From a bacterium (GTDB lineage: Bacteria > Actinomycetota > Acidimicrobiia > Spongiisociales > ZC4RG35): a stretch of 33,184 nucleotides of DNA. Numbering within the stretch: position 1 is the stretch's first letter; every line of letters starts with the position of its first letter. The position numbers were made by a program, and so were the translations under genes. Where the stretch lies: positions 1-33,184 of the forward strand of contig JAHEIN010000006.1 of NCBI GenBank assembly GCA_024639335.1, read 5' to 3'. The notes under the pieces are model-generated. The model saw nothing but the letters and a program-made list of their open reading frames with translations. It did not search any database and was not told where the DNA came from. Below are positions 22,986 through 30,064 of the stretch, in pieces.

Positions 22986-23131
22986 CCCGGCTTCGCATCT
23001 GCGTGACGCTGGGCGAGCCAAGCCTGGTTCCACCATGCGGGAAACCCGGCCAGGGCACACACCAGGCCGCGTGATGCGCCACAATGGCGATCAGCCACGG
23101 CAGTAGCCGCGAGAAGGGAGGTGATGAGAAC
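22986..23131 (+). other. Gap between fhs and fdhA, with pairing potential and a perfect SD
   Basis: 146 bp with no gene. GCCTGGT (23022-23028) and ACCAGGC (23061-23067) form a 7-bp inverted repeat enclosing a small CGGG-AAA-CCCG hairpin, so a structured leader is possible, but it matches no riboswitch I recognise. GGAGGTGAT at 23117-23125, fully complementary to the 16S rRNA tail, sets the GTG at 23132 as the fdhA start. Confidence 0.45.
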
Positions 23132-25027
23132 GTGACGAAGCGAGCAAGACGCAGACCCAGACTGACCACCCCCCTCGTGCGGGAAGATGGCGAACTCCGG
23201 CCCGCCACCTGGGACGAAGCCCTCAACCGTGCGGCCGCGGGTCTTTCCGAGGTCCGAGACGCCCACGGTGGGACCGCCGTCGGCATGTTCAGCTGCTCCA
23301 AGGCGACCAACGAGTTGAACTACCTCGCCCAGAAGTTCATCAGGGTCACGATGGGCAGCAACAACATCGACAGCTGCAACCGCACTTGACACGCCCCTTC
23401 GGTCGCCGGTCTGGCGGCTGCTCTCGGCGCAGGCGGTGGCACCAGCTCATATGAGGAGATCGAGAAGACGGATCTCATCATCATGTGGGGCTCGAATGCT
23501 CGCGCAGCGCATCCGATCTTCTTCCACCACGTCCTGAAGGGGATCCACAACGGCGCCCGGATGTACTGCGTCGATCCCCGCCGTTCCGAGACCGCCCAAT
23601 GGGCCGACGTCTGGCTCGGGATCGACGTCGGCACCGACATCGCCCTCGCCAATGGCATGGCCCGAGTCATCATCGAGCAGGGTCTCGCCAACCGCGACTT
23701 CATCGAGCGCGCAACCAGCGACTTCCAGACGTACCAGGCGAGCGTCGAGGAGTGGACGCTCGACCGCACCAGCGAAGAGACCGGTGTGCCGGCCGAATTG
23801 ATCGAAGAGATGGCGATCAACTATGCCAAAGCCCCGACGGCGCAGATCTGCTGGACGCTCGGCATCACCGAACACCACAACGGCACGGACAATGTGCTGG
23901 CGCTCATCAATCTGGCACTTCTCACCGGTCACGTCGGCCGCTACGGGTCAGGGCTCGTCCCAATCCGCGGTCAGAACAACGTCCAGGGTGGTGGCGACAT
24001 GGGCGCATTGCCCAACAAGCTGCCCGGGTTCCAGGACGTCGAGAACTCCGAGCACCTCGCCAAGTTCGAGAAGGCCTACGGTGTCGGTCTGAATCCCAAG
24101 CGCGGCTGGCACCTCACCCAGATGTTCGAGGCGATGGAAGCAGGCAAGCTCCGGGCGCTGTACGTCATCGGCGAGAACCCCGCCCAGTCCGAGGCCGATG
24201 TCGCAGTGACGCGAAGGGCGCTCGCGGAACTCGATTTCCTGGTCGTACAAGACATGTTCCTGACCAAGACGGCTGAGATGGCCGACGTCGTGTTCCCCGC
24301 CGCCGCCGACTGGTGTGAGTCGGATGGCACCGTCACGTCGTCGGAGCGGAGGGTGCAACTGGTGCGAAAGGCACTCGATCCGCCCGGCGAAGCCAGGACG
24401 GACACCGACATTCTCCATCTGATGGCACAGCGACTCGGCTTCGATTGGGGGACCCCGGCGCCCGAGGAGATCTGGGACGAATGCCGGAGCCTGTCGCCTC
24501 CACATGCAGGCATGAGCTACGCCCGTCTCGAGGCACTCGAAGGGATTCAATGGCCCTGCTACGACGAGTCACACCCTGGTGAACAGTTCCTCCACTCGCG
24601 TCTCTGGAGCGACGACGTCGGGCGACGAGCGCCATTCACGCCGGTCGTCCATGTCCTGCCCGCAGACGAGTTGTCTCGCGACTACCCCTACCGGCTCACC
24701 ACCGGCCGCCATCTCGACTCGTACAACACCGGAGTCCAGTCGGGTGGTTATTCCTCGCCCCGCCGGCCCGTCGGGGCACTCGAGTTGTCCCCCGACGACG
24801 CCACCGAATTGGGAGTGGAGAACGGCGATTCCGTCCGAGTCTCCTCGCGTCGCGGTTCGATCGAGGTGCCGGCACACATCACGAACGGTCTGCGTCCGGG
24901 GTTGATGTTCATGCCGGTCCACTTCCCCGACGACGTCGACGTCAACGTCCTCACGATCGACGCCTGGGATCCGAAGTCGGGGACAGCCGACTTCAAGGCG
25001 ACCGCAGTCCGGGTGGAGAAGACCTAG
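23132..25027 (+). CDS. fdhA: Formate dehydrogenase catalytic subunit, selenocysteine-containing, lacking its Fe4S4 domain
   Basis: 631 residues when the in-frame TGA at 23387-23389 is read as selenocysteine (residue 86). The context NIDSCNRT-Sec-HAPSVAGLAA is the formate dehydrogenase active-site motif; frame, homology and a SECIS hairpin continue straight across it. Oxidises formate to CO2 at a Mo- or W-bis-MGD centre. Further blocks: IMWGSNARAAHPI, GLVPIRGQNNVQGGGDMGALP with the substrate Arg, VIGENPAQSEADV, VVFPAAADWCESDGT, and the C-terminal aspartate-decarboxylase-like cap starting YPYRLTTGRHLDSYNTG. The usual N-terminal [4Fe-4S] domain is absent: the protein begins at TTPLVREDGELRPATWDEAL and the missing part is encoded by the gene at 26961. 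Needs SelA, SelB, SelC and SelD from elsewhere. Confidence 0.95.
23387..23420 (+). promoter_or_regulatory. Selenocysteine codon and bacterial SECIS hairpin in fdhA
   Basis: TGA at 23387-23389 is followed ten bases later by a stem of eight pairs: CGGTCGCC (23400-23407) with GGCGGCTG (23413-23420), six Watson-Crick and two G-U, closing on the loop GGTCT (23408-23412). Distance from the codon and the GGTCT apical loop are as in the E. coli fdhF SECIS, where SelB reads a GGUCU-containing loop. This is strong evidence for recoding rather than termination. Confidence 0.9.
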
Positions 25028-26773
25028 ATGGATCTCAAGCTGATCGGCGCCGCAGCGACCGATGCCGAGCGGCGGGCCATCCACGCAGCGGCCCCTGCGG
25101 CCGAGATCGAGATCGACGAGGGGCGGGCGATCACCGGAGGCCATCGGGCGCGCTCACTCCGCCACCTGCTCTTGCCGGCGCTCGCCACAGTGCAGGGGGA
25201 GATCGGATGGATCTCGCCGGGCGCCATCGACGAGATCAGCCGCCGCCTTTCGGTGCCTCCAGCCGAGATCTATTCGGTAGCCACGTTCTACGCTCTTCTG
25301 ACTCTCGATCCCCGGCCAGAACGTGTCGCGCACGTCTGCGACGATTCGGCGTGCCGGGCGACTGGCGGAGAAGCGACTCTGGAGGCGCTGGGTGACAGAG
25401 ACGATGTCGTGGCCAGCCCGTGTCTGGGTCAGTGCGACTTCGGATCGGCGGCATTCATCCAACGCGCCGGAGCGCCCGATCGGGTGATCGCCCCGGCCAC
25501 CGCCTCAGCAGTCGAGGCGGCGCTGGCAGGAGAGGAGCCGCCTGCTCGAGATCCCACGATCCCGCGACGCTCTATCGACATCCTCGACCGGATCGGCACG
25601 GCGGAACCAACGAGTCTCGACTCGTACCGGGAACACGGTGGCTACGCCGCCCTCGAGCGCGCGCTCGAGCTAGGGGCGGACATGGTGATCGACGAGGTCA
25701 CCGATTCCGGCCTCCGGGGACGTGGTGGCGCCGCCTTCCCCACTGGGGTGAAGTGGCGGGGTGCTGCAACGTCGGACTCGCAGACCCGGTTTCTGATCTG
25801 CAATGCCGACGAGTCCGAGCCTGGCACGTTCAAAGACCGCACGATCATGGAAGGCGACCCGTTCTCCGTGATCGAGGCCATGACCATCGCAGGGTTCGCA
25901 ATAGGGGCCGAGCAGGGATACATCTATGTCCGTGGCGAGTATCCCGATGCCGTCAGTGCCCTCCAGAACGCCATCGACCGGGCGACCGAGGCTCGGCTGC
26001 TCGGCGACGACATCCTCGGAGAAGGCGTCACCTTCGACATCGAGATCCGACAGGGTCAGGGGGCCTATATCTGCGGCGAGGAGACCGCGCTCTTCAATTC
26101 GATAGAGGGTTTCCGGGGCGAGCCACGTCAGAAGCCGCCCTTCCCGACCGAGGCCGGGCTCTTCGGCCAGCCGACGGTCGTCAACAACGTCGAGACGCTC
26201 GTCAACGTCCTCGACATCGTGTTGTTGGGCGGTGCCAGGTTCGCCACGGTCGGCACCGAGAACTCGACCGGGACGAGACTCTTCTGCGTCAGTGGAGCCA
26301 TCGATCGCCCCGGTGTCTACGAGGTCGAATTCGGGACCACGATGCGGGAGCTCCTCGAGTTCGCCGGCGGTCCGCCCGACGATCTCACTGCCATCCTGCT
26401 CGGCGGGGCGGCAGGGAGCTTCGTCGGACCGGACATGTTCGATCTGCCACTCACGTTCGAAGACAGCCGAGCGGCAGGAGTCAGCTTGGGCTCCGGTGTG
26501 GTCGTCGTCTACGACAGCTCCACCGATATGAAGGCGGTCGCCCGGCGGATCGCCCGTTTCTTCCGGGACGAATCCTGCGGTCAGTGTGTTCCGTGCCGAG
26601 TCGGTACGGTCCGGATCGAGGAAGCGCTGGCCCGGAACCTCACCGGCGACGCACCCCTGGAGACGGGATTGATCGACGACATCGACATCGCCATGAAGGA
26701 CTCATCGATCTGTGGTCTCGGCCACACTGCGGCAACTGCCATCCGATCGGCGATCGACCTGGGCCTCATATGA
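25028..26773 (+). CDS. NAD-linked formate dehydrogenase diaphorase subunit, NuoE-NuoF fusion
   Basis: 581 residues. The NuoE-like part (about 1-165) has the helical start and the thioredoxin-like [2Fe-2S] domain with Cys pairs VCDDSACRATGG and SPCLGQCDFG. The NuoF part (about 175-581) has the FMN/NADH region RGRGGAAFPTGVKWRG, NADESEPGTFKDRTIMEGDP, QGAYICGEETALFNSIEG, the SLBB-like middle, and the [4Fe-4S] ligands ESCGQCVPCRVGT plus Cys in DSSICGLGHT. It would carry electrons from the catalytic unit to NAD+. Separate nuoE and nuoF are more usual; fusions occur in FDH and hydrogenase operons. ATG 25028 directly follows the fdhA stop. Confidence 0.93.
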   Translation: MDLKLIGAAATDAERRAIHAAAPAAEIEIDEGRAITGGHRARSLRHLLLPALATVQGEIGWISPGAIDEISRRLSVPPAEIYSVATFYALLTLDPRPERVAHVCDDSACRATGGEATLEALGDRDDVVASPCLGQCDFGSAAFIQRAGAPDRVIAPATASAVEAALAGEEPPARDPTIPRRSIDILDRIGTAEPTSLDSYREHGGYAALERALELGADMVIDEVTDSGLRGRGGAAFPTGVKWRGAATSDSQTRFLICNADESEPGTFKDRTIMEGDPFSVIEAMTIAGFAIGAEQGYIYVRGEYPDAVSALQNAIDRATEARLLGDDILGEGVTFDIEIRQGQGAYICGEETALFNSIEGFRGEPRQKPPFPTEAGLFGQPTVVNNVETLVNVLDIVLLGGARFATVGTENSTGTRLFCVSGAIDRPGVYEVEFGTTMRELLEFAGGPPDDLTAILLGGAAGSFVGPDMFDLPLTFEDSRAAGVSLGSGVVVVYDSSTDMKAVARRIARFFRDESCGQCVPCRVGTVRIEEALARNLTGDAPLETGLIDDIDIAMKDSSICGLGHTAATAIRSAIDLGLI

Positions 26774-26808
26774 GTTCACAGTTCACGGTTCACAGTTCAC
26801 AGTTCAAC
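26774..26808. repeat. Heptamer tandem repeat GTTCACA, five units
   Basis: Five consecutive 7-bp units: GTTCACA, GTTCACG, GTTCACA, GTTCACA, GTTCAAC, beginning with the base after the nuoEF stop. It lies in the 187-bp spacer inside the FDH operon. A reverse-complement unit and a second heptamer family stand 80 bp downstream. Confidence 0.85.
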
Positions 26809-26885
26809 CATCGCCAGGACTGCGACGAGGGCAAGCGGAACGCCCCGAGACGCTTCGACCCGCGGCGATGCGGGAACTGTCACCC

Positions 26886-26906
26886 GTCGACCGTCGACTG
26901 TGAACC
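26886..26906. repeat. Second heptamer run, GTCGACC/GTCGACT/GTGAACC
   Basis: Three 7-bp units. TGTGAAC at 26899-26905 is the reverse complement of the GTTCACA unit at 26774 and onward, so the spacer could fold with the two ends paired. The 77 bp between the runs shows nothing recognisable. Confidence 0.7.
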
Positions 26907-26960
26907 CCTCCTCCGTTTGACGGATCCCGTCGAACCGTTGATTCGGTATTGGAGTGCGGC

Positions 26961-27911
26961 ATGAGTGTTTCGGTGACCATCGATGGGACCGCTGTCTCCG
27001 TGGCCGAGGGATCCACCATTCTCGAAGCATGCCGTGAGATCGGGAGCGAACAGCCGACGCTGTGTTGGGTGTCGACGCTGACACCGGTCAACGTCTGCCG
27101 GGTGTGCGTCGTCGAAGTCGAGGGCTCCCGCACGTTGGTTCCTTCGTGTTCGCGCGCCGTCGAGAACGGCATGGTGATCAACACCGACTCCGAGCGTGTT
27201 CGTCACTCCCGGAAGATGGTCCTGGAGTTTCTCGACTCATCGGCGGATCTGTCCAACAGCGAGATGGCTCCCTGGATGGAGCGGTATGGTGTCGACTCGT
27301 CCCGGTACGGGCCGCGATCGGGTCCTCACGACGACCGCGACGATCGCCACGCCGGTCATCATCCCGAGCCCGACGGCTTGGTGGCAGAGACCGTCGACCA
27401 GCCGGTGAAGGTCGACAACGCCCTCTACATCCGGGACTATGCGAGCTGCATCCTCTGCTACAAGTGCGTCCAGGCGTGCGGCGAGGAGGCACAGAACACC
27501 TTCGCCATCGCGGTCGCAGGACGAGGCTTCGACGCGCGAATCTCGACCGAACTCGACACGCCGCTCACCGATTCGGCATGCGTCTTCTGCGGCAACTGTG
27601 TTGGCGTCTGTCCGACCGGGGCGCTCCAGTTCCGCTCCGAGTACGAGATGCGCCGTGCCGGAATCTGGAATGAAGCCGAACAATCGGTGACCCGAACGGT
27701 GTGCTCGTATTGTGCGATCGGCTGCAACCTCGAGCTCCACGTCCAAGACAACCGCATCGTCAAGGTGACCTCACCCCTCGACCATTCGGTGACTCACGGC
27801 AACCTATGCATCAAGGGGCGTTTCGGCTACGACTACGTCCAGGAACTCGGCGACCTGGCGGTATCGCCGATCGACGAGGTTTTGCGCGCTGCTCGGTCGG
27901 ACAACGACTGA
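26961..27911 (+). CDS. Detached N-terminal Fe-S part of FdhA (2Fe-2S, two 4Fe-4S, Mo-oxidoreductase Fe4S4 domain)
   Basis: 316 residues. Residues 1-75 form a NuoG-like [2Fe-2S] domain with Cys35, Cys46, Cys49 and Cys63. The His-Cys3 cluster normally next is missing: that stretch reads SADLSNSEMAPWMERYG, followed by a His/Asp-rich loop (HDDRDDRHAGHH). Two ferredoxin clusters follow: CILCYKCVQACG and CVFCGNCVGVCPTG. The end is the [4Fe-4S] domain that starts molybdopterin FDHs: CSYCAIGCNLELHVQDNRIV, and HGNLCIKGRFGYDYV. The protein stops where the fdhA product at 23132 begins in colinear homologues. Presumed to dock on that subunit and wire it to NuoEF. Start ATG 26961, with GGAG six bases upstream. 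Confidence 0.92.
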   Translation: MSVSVTIDGTAVSVAEGSTILEACREIGSEQPTLCWVSTLTPVNVCRVCVVEVEGSRTLVPSCSRAVENGMVINTDSERVRHSRKMVLEFLDSSADLSNSEMAPWMERYGVDSSRYGPRSGPHDDRDDRHAGHHPEPDGLVAETVDQPVKVDNALYIRDYASCILCYKCVQACGEEAQNTFAIAVAGRGFDARISTELDTPLTDSACVFCGNCVGVCPTGALQFRSEYEMRRAGIWNEAEQSVTRTVCSYCAIGCNLELHVQDNRIVKVTSPLDHSVTHGNLCIKGRFGYDYVQELGDLAVSPIDEVLRAARSDND

Positions 27912-27917
27912 GGCGGC

Positions 27918-28598
27918 TCAGATACCGGCAACGAAGGCCCGGAACGAACCCGCCGCCCCGCCCACGATGGCCGCCGAATGACCGAAGCAGGCGATCTGGA
28001 AATCGAGTCCCGCCATCGTGCGCAGACTGCCATCGAACCTCGCCGACTGTCGGTTCATGAAACCACGTCGCACCCCGCCCGACCGAGTCGACATTGCCGA
28101 ATCGCCGGCGAACAGCACACCACCGTGACGGTCCAAGAGGAGCGAGATGTGCCCGGCGGTGTGCCCCGGCGTCGGGACGGCGCTGAGATCGGATACGACC
28201 GGGACATCCCCATCGACAACCGTGTGATCCACTGCGACGCCTTCCGCCTGCGGCACCAGACCGATCAGGTTGCGGAGTATCGGGAAGTCCATGATCGGCG
28301 GCGGGGCGGCCGGCGCATCTCCGCGCACGACCGGGGCGTCGGTCTCCGACACGATCAGAGCTGCCCCCGAATCGCGCTTGATGGCGCCCGCCCCACCGGT
28401 GTGGTCGGCATGGCCGTGGGTGATCACGATGGCGGCGATGTCCTGCGCCTTGCGCCCGATCGTCGTGAGTCCGTCCAGGATCGCGCCTTGCCGCTTGGGA
28501 AGGCCGCTGTCGACCAGGACGACGCCCTCGTCGCCGTCGATGATGAACGCGTTGACACCCTTGGAGATCTGGTGGATTCCCGCAGCGATCTGCTCCAT
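27918..28598 (-). CDS. Metallo-beta-lactamase-fold hydrolase
   Basis: 226 residues of the MBL superfamily: N-terminal strands ending VVLVDSGLPK, the metal motif ITHGHADHTGG (HxHxDH), PTPGHTAGHISLLL with the next His, and FAGDSAM with the bridging Asp; the last His is in CFGHSAAI. A typical glyoxalase II-like or lactonase-like small hydrolase; substrate unknown. Start ATG 28598, with a TAGCCT box seven bases before it and no Shine-Dalgarno, or a TTG at 28631. Convergent with the formate dehydrogenase operon, six bases between stops, and divergent from the next oxidoreductase. Confidence 0.88.
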   Translation of the reverse strand: MEQIAAGIHQISKGVNAFIIDGDEGVVLVDSGLPKRQGAILDGLTTIGRKAQDIAAIVITHGHADHTGGAGAIKRDSGAALIVSETDAPVVRGDAPAAPPPIMDFPILRNLIGLVPQAEGVAVDHTVVDGDVPVVSDLSAVPTPGHTAGHISLLLDRHGGVLFAGDSAMSTRSGGVRRGFMNRQSARFDGSLRTMAGLDFQIACFGHSAAIVGGAAGSFRAFVAGI

Positions 28599-28605
28599 GC
28601 GAGCG

Positions 28606-28611
28606 AGGCTA
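28606..28611 (-). promoter_or_regulatory. -10 box for leaderless MBL-fold hydrolase gene
   Basis: TAGCCT on the minus strand with seven bases to the ATG at 28598 and no Shine-Dalgarno. Same layout as the other leaderless candidates. Confidence 0.35.
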
Positions 28612-28687
28612 CCCGAGGTCGGGGTCGCCAATACGCCACGGAGGCCGATACCGTTGCGTCGACACTGCCGACGAGGTCTGAAACCAC

Positions 28688-30064
28688 ATGACGATTCCGA
28701 TCACCCTCGACACGACGGGGCCGGCCTTTCCACGGACGGAATGGTTCGTGGAACTCACGGATACCGTCGCCGGCACCAGGCTCCCGAATCAGATACCGGT
28801 GACATCGGCGATCTCCGAACTGACACCAAGTGACGGCGACCGTGTTCTGGGACGGGTGAACATCGGGTTCTCGGACCGGGTCGTTCTCATCGAACGAACC
28901 AACGGTGCCGATACGCACGTCGTGAGTGGGATCGAACTGGAAGCCATCACCACCAGCCAGATGCTGACGACATATCTCGACCGGGCGCTCACCGGACGCT
29001 CGTCACGCCAGACGCTCTCGATCGGAGTCGTGGGATACGGACCGTTCGGCGGCATGGGCTATGCCCACGGGCTGGCCTGCACCGAGATCGAAGGACTCGA
29101 GTTCGTTGCTGCCGTCGACCCGAGCGACGAGCGCAGAAAGGCAGCCGAGTCCGATTTCCCGAGGATCGAGACATACGGCAACGTCACCCAGATGATCGAG
29201 GATGGGGGCGTCGACCTCGCGATCGTCGCCACCCCACCTGCCCATCACGCCCCTCTCGCCGCACAGCTCCTCAGCAACGGCATCCATGCCGTTGTCGAGA
29301 AGCCGATGTGTCTCACCACCGAGGACGCCGACCACTTGATTGCGACGGCGGCCGAGCGTGACCTGCTGGTGACCGTCCATCAGTCGCGACGCTGGGATCG
29401 CGATTACCTGGCCCTGCGAACCGTCGTCGAGTCCGATCAGATCGGTGACGTGTTCAACATCGAGACGTTCGTTGGTGGTTTCGGACACCCGTGCCGGGCG
29501 TGGCACAGCGAGGAGTCGATCTCCGGTGGCGCGATCTACGACTGGGGCAGCCACCATGTCGACTGGATCATCCAGCTGTACGGTTCGATGCCGACCACGA
29601 TCCGTTGCGTCGGGCACAAGCGGGTTTGGCACGACGTCACCAATCTCGACCAGTTGACGTTGCACATGATGTGGTCGGACGGTCGGGAGGCGACGTTCCG
29701 CCAATCCGACATCGCCGCCATCCGCCGGCCCAAGTTCTACCTGCAAGGCGAGATGGGCACGCTCGAAGGACACTATCGGCCGCTCATCGCGGAACGGCTC
29801 GAGCCGGGTCGCGGGTACGTCAGTGTGGAGTCCCATCACGCCGAAGCGCCTGTCGACCTCGAAATCCGCCGCTTCGACGGATCGACCACTTCGGTTCAGC
29901 CGGCCGAACATCCCGGCTGGAGCTTCCATGCGAACCTCGCCGACCATCTCCTTCTGGGCGAGCCACTCGCCGTGACACCGGATTCGACCCGTGACGTCGT
30001 CCGGGTCCTCGAGGCGGGTCATCGATCGGCGTCAGAGGGCGGGAGTGTGATCACGCTTGAGTGA
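28688..30064 (+). CDS. Gfo/Idh/MocA oxidoreductase with N-terminal extension
   Basis: 458 residues. About 112 N-terminal residues precede the NAD(P)-binding fold; they contain short beta-rich patches (TEWFVELTDTVAGTRLPNQI in part, SDRVVLIERTNGADTHVVSG) and match no domain I recognise. The Rossmann start is SIGVVGYGPFGGMGYAHGL, the family Glu-Lys-Pro is in AVVEKPMCLTTEDAD, and the C-terminal sheet domain has GGAIYDWGSHHVDWIIQLYG with the usual catalytic His region. Likely a dehydrogenase on a sugar, inositol or related polyol; substrate unknown. Its stop overlaps the start of a second family member. Confidence 0.88.
   Translation: MTIPITLDTTGPAFPRTEWFVELTDTVAGTRLPNQIPVTSAISELTPSDGDRVLGRVNIGFSDRVVLIERTNGADTHVVSGIELEAITTSQMLTTYLDRALTGRSSRQTLSIGVVGYGPFGGMGYAHGLACTEIEGLEFVAAVDPSDERRKAAESDFPRIETYGNVTQMIEDGGVDLAIVATPPAHHAPLAAQLLSNGIHAVVEKPMCLTTEDADHLIATAAERDLLVTVHQSRRWDRDYLALRTVVESDQIGDVFNIETFVGGFGHPCRAWHSEESISGGAIYDWGSHHVDWIIQLYGSMPTTIRCVGHKRVWHDVTNLDQLTLHMMWSDGREATFRQSDIAAIRRPKFYLQGEMGTLEGHYRPLIAERLEPGRGYVSVESHHAEAPVDLEIRRFDGSTTSVQPAEHPGWSFHANLADHLLLGEPLAVTPDSTRDVVRVLEAGHRSASEGGSVITLE

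Follow-up and report, generated by a model that had tools for sequence, protein, structure and literature searches.

Evidence for a selenocysteine-containing formate dehydrogenase with a divided alpha subunit in a member of the Acidimicrobiia

Background

In a draft genome of the Acidimicrobiia (GCA_024639335.1; 296 contigs, about 92% complete), the gene fdhA carries a TGA codon at the active site of a formate dehydrogenase (FDH), and the comparisons presented here provide good support for its being read as selenocysteine (Sec). The gene is located on the plus strand at positions 23132 to 25027 of the window, by which we mean the whole stretch of 33,184 nucleotides of contig JAHEIN010000006.1 that was analysed. 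Judged from sequence, the locus very probably encodes a cytoplasmic, NAD-linked FDH that holds a Mo/W-bisMGD cofactor, uses Sec as its catalytic residue and has a catalytic chain split over the two polypeptides FdhA and FdhC.

FDH is the commonest bacterial selenoprotein and many aerobes use Sec, according to a survey that covered more than 5200 organisms (PMC5029168). In Actinomycetospora chiangmaiensis, which belongs to a different lineage of the Actinomycetota, the enzyme FDH3, made up of FdhA3, FdhB3 and FdhC3 (WP_084681743, WP_018332443 and WP_018332444; 640, 614 and 316 amino acids), is described as a cytoplasmic NAD-dependent Sec-FDH of which all three subunits were detected by proteomics and with which formate removal is selenium-dependent; a bacterial SECIS element, SelA, SelB, SelD and FdhD are reported there as well (PMC7176365). 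A Streptomyces genome report likewise lists a Sec-containing FDH together with selABCD (PMC4498112). Our literature search for papers naming Acidimicrobiia with a Sec-FDH found none.

Results and discussion

The fdhA gene contains a single in-frame TGA in its active-site motif

The fdhA frame runs from a GTG at 23132 to a TAG ending at 25027 and spans 631 residues, namely 85, Sec and a further 545. A putative ribosome-binding site, GGGAGGTGA (23117 to 23125, plus strand), can be read from aagggaggtgatgagaacGTG before the GTG. The only stop codon inside the frame is the TGA at 23387 to 23389 (plus strand), codon 86, situated in the motif SCNRT-U-HAPSVAGL. A preliminary description of this DNA, made from the letters alone, had reported a TGA in the active-site motif followed by a homologous frame of 545 residues, and its coordinates and counts are correct. 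Its main reading, a Sec-encoding formate dehydrogenase, is supported as well, and neither of the two findings that it named as speaking against this reading, a genome devoid of Sec machinery or close relatives with a frameshift or a stop at other positions of the same gene, was made.

FdhA is an FDH catalytic subunit by several measures. It matches the families PF00384 and PF01568 (Molybdopterin, Molydop_binding) and reaches 679.5 bits against the Fdh-alpha equivalog TIGR01591, above its cut-off of 666.25. In an alignment with E. coli FDH-H (fdhF; PDB 1aa6), the candidate Sec86 falls on the Sec of that enzyme, shown as X in the PDB chain, and His87 and Arg279 fall on His141 and Arg333, residues being counted by hand. 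The two enzymes share Sec at the active site followed by His, the catalytic Arg and a SECIS just 3' of the UGA, although FDH-H has its own Fe4S4 domain in the chain and FdhA has not. FDH-H belongs to formate hydrogenlyase and is not NAD-linked. A Sec molybdoenzyme acting on another substrate, for instance one resembling nitrate reductase or formylmethanofuran dehydrogenase, would come from the same large superfamily, and nitrate reductases do score against FdhA; their models nevertheless stay below their own cut-offs where the Fdh-alpha equivalog passes, the ten best solved-structure matches are FDHs or YjgC (annotated there as probable oxidoreductase only), the catalytic Sec-His and Arg are retained and the gene adjoins a formate-tetrahydrofolate ligase, which leaves a different substrate very improbable.

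The TGA is conserved among relatives

Sec-FDHs of this type gave more than 90 hits of at least 59% identity among 296 sampled genomes of the class. Those hits that cover the site contain exactly one TGA, at the same codon, and no other stop, which answers the proposed check for close relatives with stops elsewhere. Among the 109 loci that extend across the site, a stop occupies it in 89 and a Cys codon in 20, and the stop is TGA in all 88 stop-bearing loci in which the codon is readable. That the TGA could be a true stop, making fdhA a pseudogene, the product of a sequencing error or an 85-residue fragment, would agree with the standard code, under which the sole long open reading frame at the gene (23483 to 25027) begins 3' of the TGA. 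The same TGA is, however, shared by dozens of genera and by other phyla within full-length frames, the SECIS is retained in the TGA members only and the genome has a complete Sec machinery, so that a true stop has next to no probability; pseudogene and sequencing error were rejected on the conservation of both TGA and frame.

The Cys members comprise Streptomyces, Nocardiopsis and distant Saccharopolyspora sequences. Cys forms from Streptomyces and Nocardiopsis (among them L042 and L058), with 61-67% identity, share the split A-B-C cluster of the source, but they carry TGC or TGT in place of the TGA and have lost the SECIS. On a quick tree, rooted at its midpoint only, the Sec/Cys label has to change twice, the main Cys group, that of Streptomyces and Nocardiopsis, is nested beside Sec members and the rows nearest to the source fdhA include Acidimicrobiia. 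The placement of this Cys group fits a loss of Sec in favour of Cys, the direction of change that was reported for FdhA (PMC1794560). Two Sec-containing copies of the split FDH were observed on separate contigs of one metagenome-assembled genome, RHO1_bin_22 (L020 and L021).

The genome encodes the complete Sec machinery

The preliminary description expected the host to carry selA, selB, selC and selD and located none of them in the window. Both statements are borne out: scans for tRNAs, Rfam families and protein families (the latter covering part of the window's open reading frames) detected none of the four in the window, and all are present on other contigs of the genome. The selA and selB genes are adjacent (contig C7), a tRNA-Sec of 95 bases has the anticodon TCA (contig C171) and selD was found on contig C223 (26252-27178; minus strand, near 2400 in L017). 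The selD gene has an in-frame TGA of its own in its active-site motif, YSHGAG-U-ACKLGP as read from the DNA, and is therefore a second selenoprotein gene of the genome, of the well-known Sec-SelD type. In addition, fdhD is present (contig C190).

Among near relatives, SelB was found in 36 of 41. Six genomes with SelB (G013, G195, G249, G286, G001 and G018) gave no match to FdhA at the threshold used; their Sec may go into SelD or into other proteins. The earlier statement that selenoproteins are uncommon in aerobic actinobacteria was overstated, given this frequency of SelB, the number of FDH hits in the class and the share of aerobes, about 40%, among Sec-using bacteria in the survey (PMC5029168).

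A SECIS hairpin follows the TGA and is lost in Cys relatives

Ten bases past the TGA begins a candidate bacterial SECIS hairpin (23400 to 23420, plus strand), CGGTCGCC-GGTCT-GGCGGCTG, in which an 8-bp stem (23400-23407 paired with 23413-23420) closes the loop GGTCT (23408-23412). Folding of the RNA around the TGA, a check suggested in advance, returned this hairpin as the minimum-energy structure, although its energy is unremarkable against shuffled sequence (z = -0.59) in what is a GC-rich region; folding energy was accordingly rejected as proof of a SECIS. An Rfam scan at the gathering threshold, which is a curated score and not a defining trait of SECIS elements, reported no SECIS family for the hairpin, the best family, SECIS_3, scoring 23 bits where 63 are required (E = 0.0017). 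When synonymous codons were redrawn according to local codon usage, GGTCT with an 8-bp stem arose in 0.7% of the draws.

We accept the element because of the comparison across relatives and its compensatory changes, and not because of its folding energy. A GGTCT loop on a stem of 4 bp or more occurs throughout the 75 distinct Sec relatives of more than 50% identity and in none of the 16 distinct Cys relatives (Fisher p = 4e-18, with rows that are related by descent). Stems in the Sec relatives have at least four pairs and mostly six to eight. Each of the six inner pairs is intact in 97-100% of the Sec sequences, and two-sided changes occur at stem pairs 1 and 4 (C-G/G-C) and 3 (G-C/A-T). As a control for the codon period, sliding the partner by three bases gave pairing in 65-80% of cells compared to 92% in register, an imperfect control. 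The outer two pairs are specific to the source sequence and unconserved. Of the 'textbook' SECIS with an 8-bp stem that had been described, the hairpin, its GGTCT loop and its position therefore stand, and the conserved core is reduced to 6 bp.

This comparison also bears on whether the TGA might stand for an ordinary residue such as Cys or Trp, through readthrough by a near-cognate tRNA or through an altered genetic code, with the hairpin a by-product of codon constraint. The 20 relatives with Cys at the site and a stem that is unexceptional by itself are in line with such decoding; yet the Cys relatives encode the same Gly-Leu and have lost GGTCT in 15 of 16 cases and the stem in all 16, the tRNA found with a TCA anticodon is tRNA-Sec and the genome encodes SelB. 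We regard decoding as an ordinary residue as scarcely credible, and insertion of Sec as the well-supported reading. One Cys relative, Streptomyces sp. S.PNR 29 (L079), has GGTCT where the loop once was but lacks a paired stem, which may be a vestige of a SECIS or due to chance.

The alpha subunit appears to be divided between FdhA and FdhC

Two partner genes follow fdhA on the plus strand. The first, fdhB (25028 to 26773, 581 amino acids), fuses a NuoE-like part (2Fe-2S, thioredoxin-like) to a NuoF-like part (FMN/NAD, 4Fe-4S), so that a diaphorase subunit with an FMN/NAD domain is present within it. The second, fdhC (26961 to 27911), encodes a 2Fe-2S domain, a 4Fe-4S ferredoxin domain and a molybdopterin Fe4S4 domain, as indicated by domain matches and by alignment with FdsA; its start was taken at the ATG at 26961, the listed open reading frame beginning with a TTG at 26949. 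These partners, and the separation of FdhA from its iron-sulphur part, were missed in the preliminary description.

A domain scan of FdhA detected no N-terminal 4Fe-4S domain, and this domain is located at the end of FdhC. Such an N-terminal Fe4S4 domain is usual but not universal in Fdh-alpha chains, and it is missing across the whole clade. FdhC aligns with residues 22-305 of FdsA and FdhA with residues 305-932; together they therefore correspond to one FdsA chain, cut at the boundary between the Fe4S4 and Mo parts and with the gene order swapped. FdhC is thus predicted to supply what FdhA lacks of an FdsA-type alpha subunit, its N-terminal part. The A-B-C gene order is conserved in most loci whose flanks extend far enough. 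As reference we used the FdsA-type alpha subunit of PDB 6tg9, from Rhodobacter capsulatus FdsABG; it has the domains of FdhC and FdhA and presumably the same electron chain. Chain A of 6tg9 is a single chain with Cys, whereas the source has two genes in swapped order, Sec, and fused NuoE- and NuoF-like parts.

The 187-base spacer between fdhB and fdhC (26774-26960) was seen to contain a 7-base tandem repeat, AGTTCAC, in about five copies (26773-26806); at 26893-26905 a further copy is partly inverted. The repeat may be mobile or have a regulatory role. Directly 3' of fdhC lies an open reading frame of 237 amino acids (27978-28691) that has no Pfam or NCBIfam match; none of the other loci compared has it next to the FDH genes, and it may be a spurious frame.

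Proposed working of the enzyme and its metabolic setting

A formate-tetrahydrofolate ligase gene (PF01268; 21138 to 22985, plus strand) ends 146 bases upstream of fdhA. In 31 loci in which the two genes are paired, the ligase lies upstream on the same strand in 22 and on the opposite strand in 9, and it is likely to be the functional partner of the FDH in one-carbon metabolism. The source genome has two heme-copper oxidase genes, which makes aerobic life plausible and, with it, formate oxidation the more likely direction of the enzyme.

From what was observed directly, that is sequence, conservation, SECIS covariation, machinery and domain order, we infer Sec insertion itself, the assembly of the complex, and the route and direction of the electrons as follows. 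The UGA at 23387-23389 would be decoded by tRNA-Sec delivered by SelB, which the GGUCU hairpin just 3' of it would hold on the site, with Sec supplied by SelA and SelD. The cofactor would be sulphurated or matured by FdhD, and bisMGD would be held in FdhA with Sec86, His87 and Arg279. Electrons from formate would pass to the Fe4S4 cluster on the separate polypeptide FdhC, and from the FdhC clusters to those of FdhB, to FMN and finally to NAD+. Formate could be oxidised for NADH or be loaded on tetrahydrofolate by the adjoining ligase.

In number, sizes and annotation, the A. chiangmaiensis FDH3 subunits described in PMC7176365 resemble those of the source (631, 581 and about 316 amino acids). 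An actinobacterial enzyme of this type is already on record and its kind is common among relatives of the source, so the find is correct but ordinary. A division of the alpha chain over FdhA and FdhC is not spelled out in the parts of PMC7176365, PMC4498112 and PMC5029168 cited here. One might go further and regard the Sec-FDHs with Fe4S4 on a separate polypeptide (Actinomycetota, Planctomycetota, Armatimonadota, Acidobacteriota and others) as a distinct, biochemically unstudied architecture, which in some members may reduce CO2 aerobically and so supply the neighbouring tetrahydrofolate ligase with formate; we consider this a long shot.

Conclusions

Reading the TGA as Sec restores the full length of a gene that would be cut short by standard annotation, and the split reading ties the poorly annotated FdhC to its catalytic subunit. 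The split FDH family moreover offers a clean natural comparison between Sec forms with a SECIS and Cys forms without. The find also lends support to the view, already in print, that Sec is no rarity among aerobic bacteria; otherwise the locus represents expected biology.
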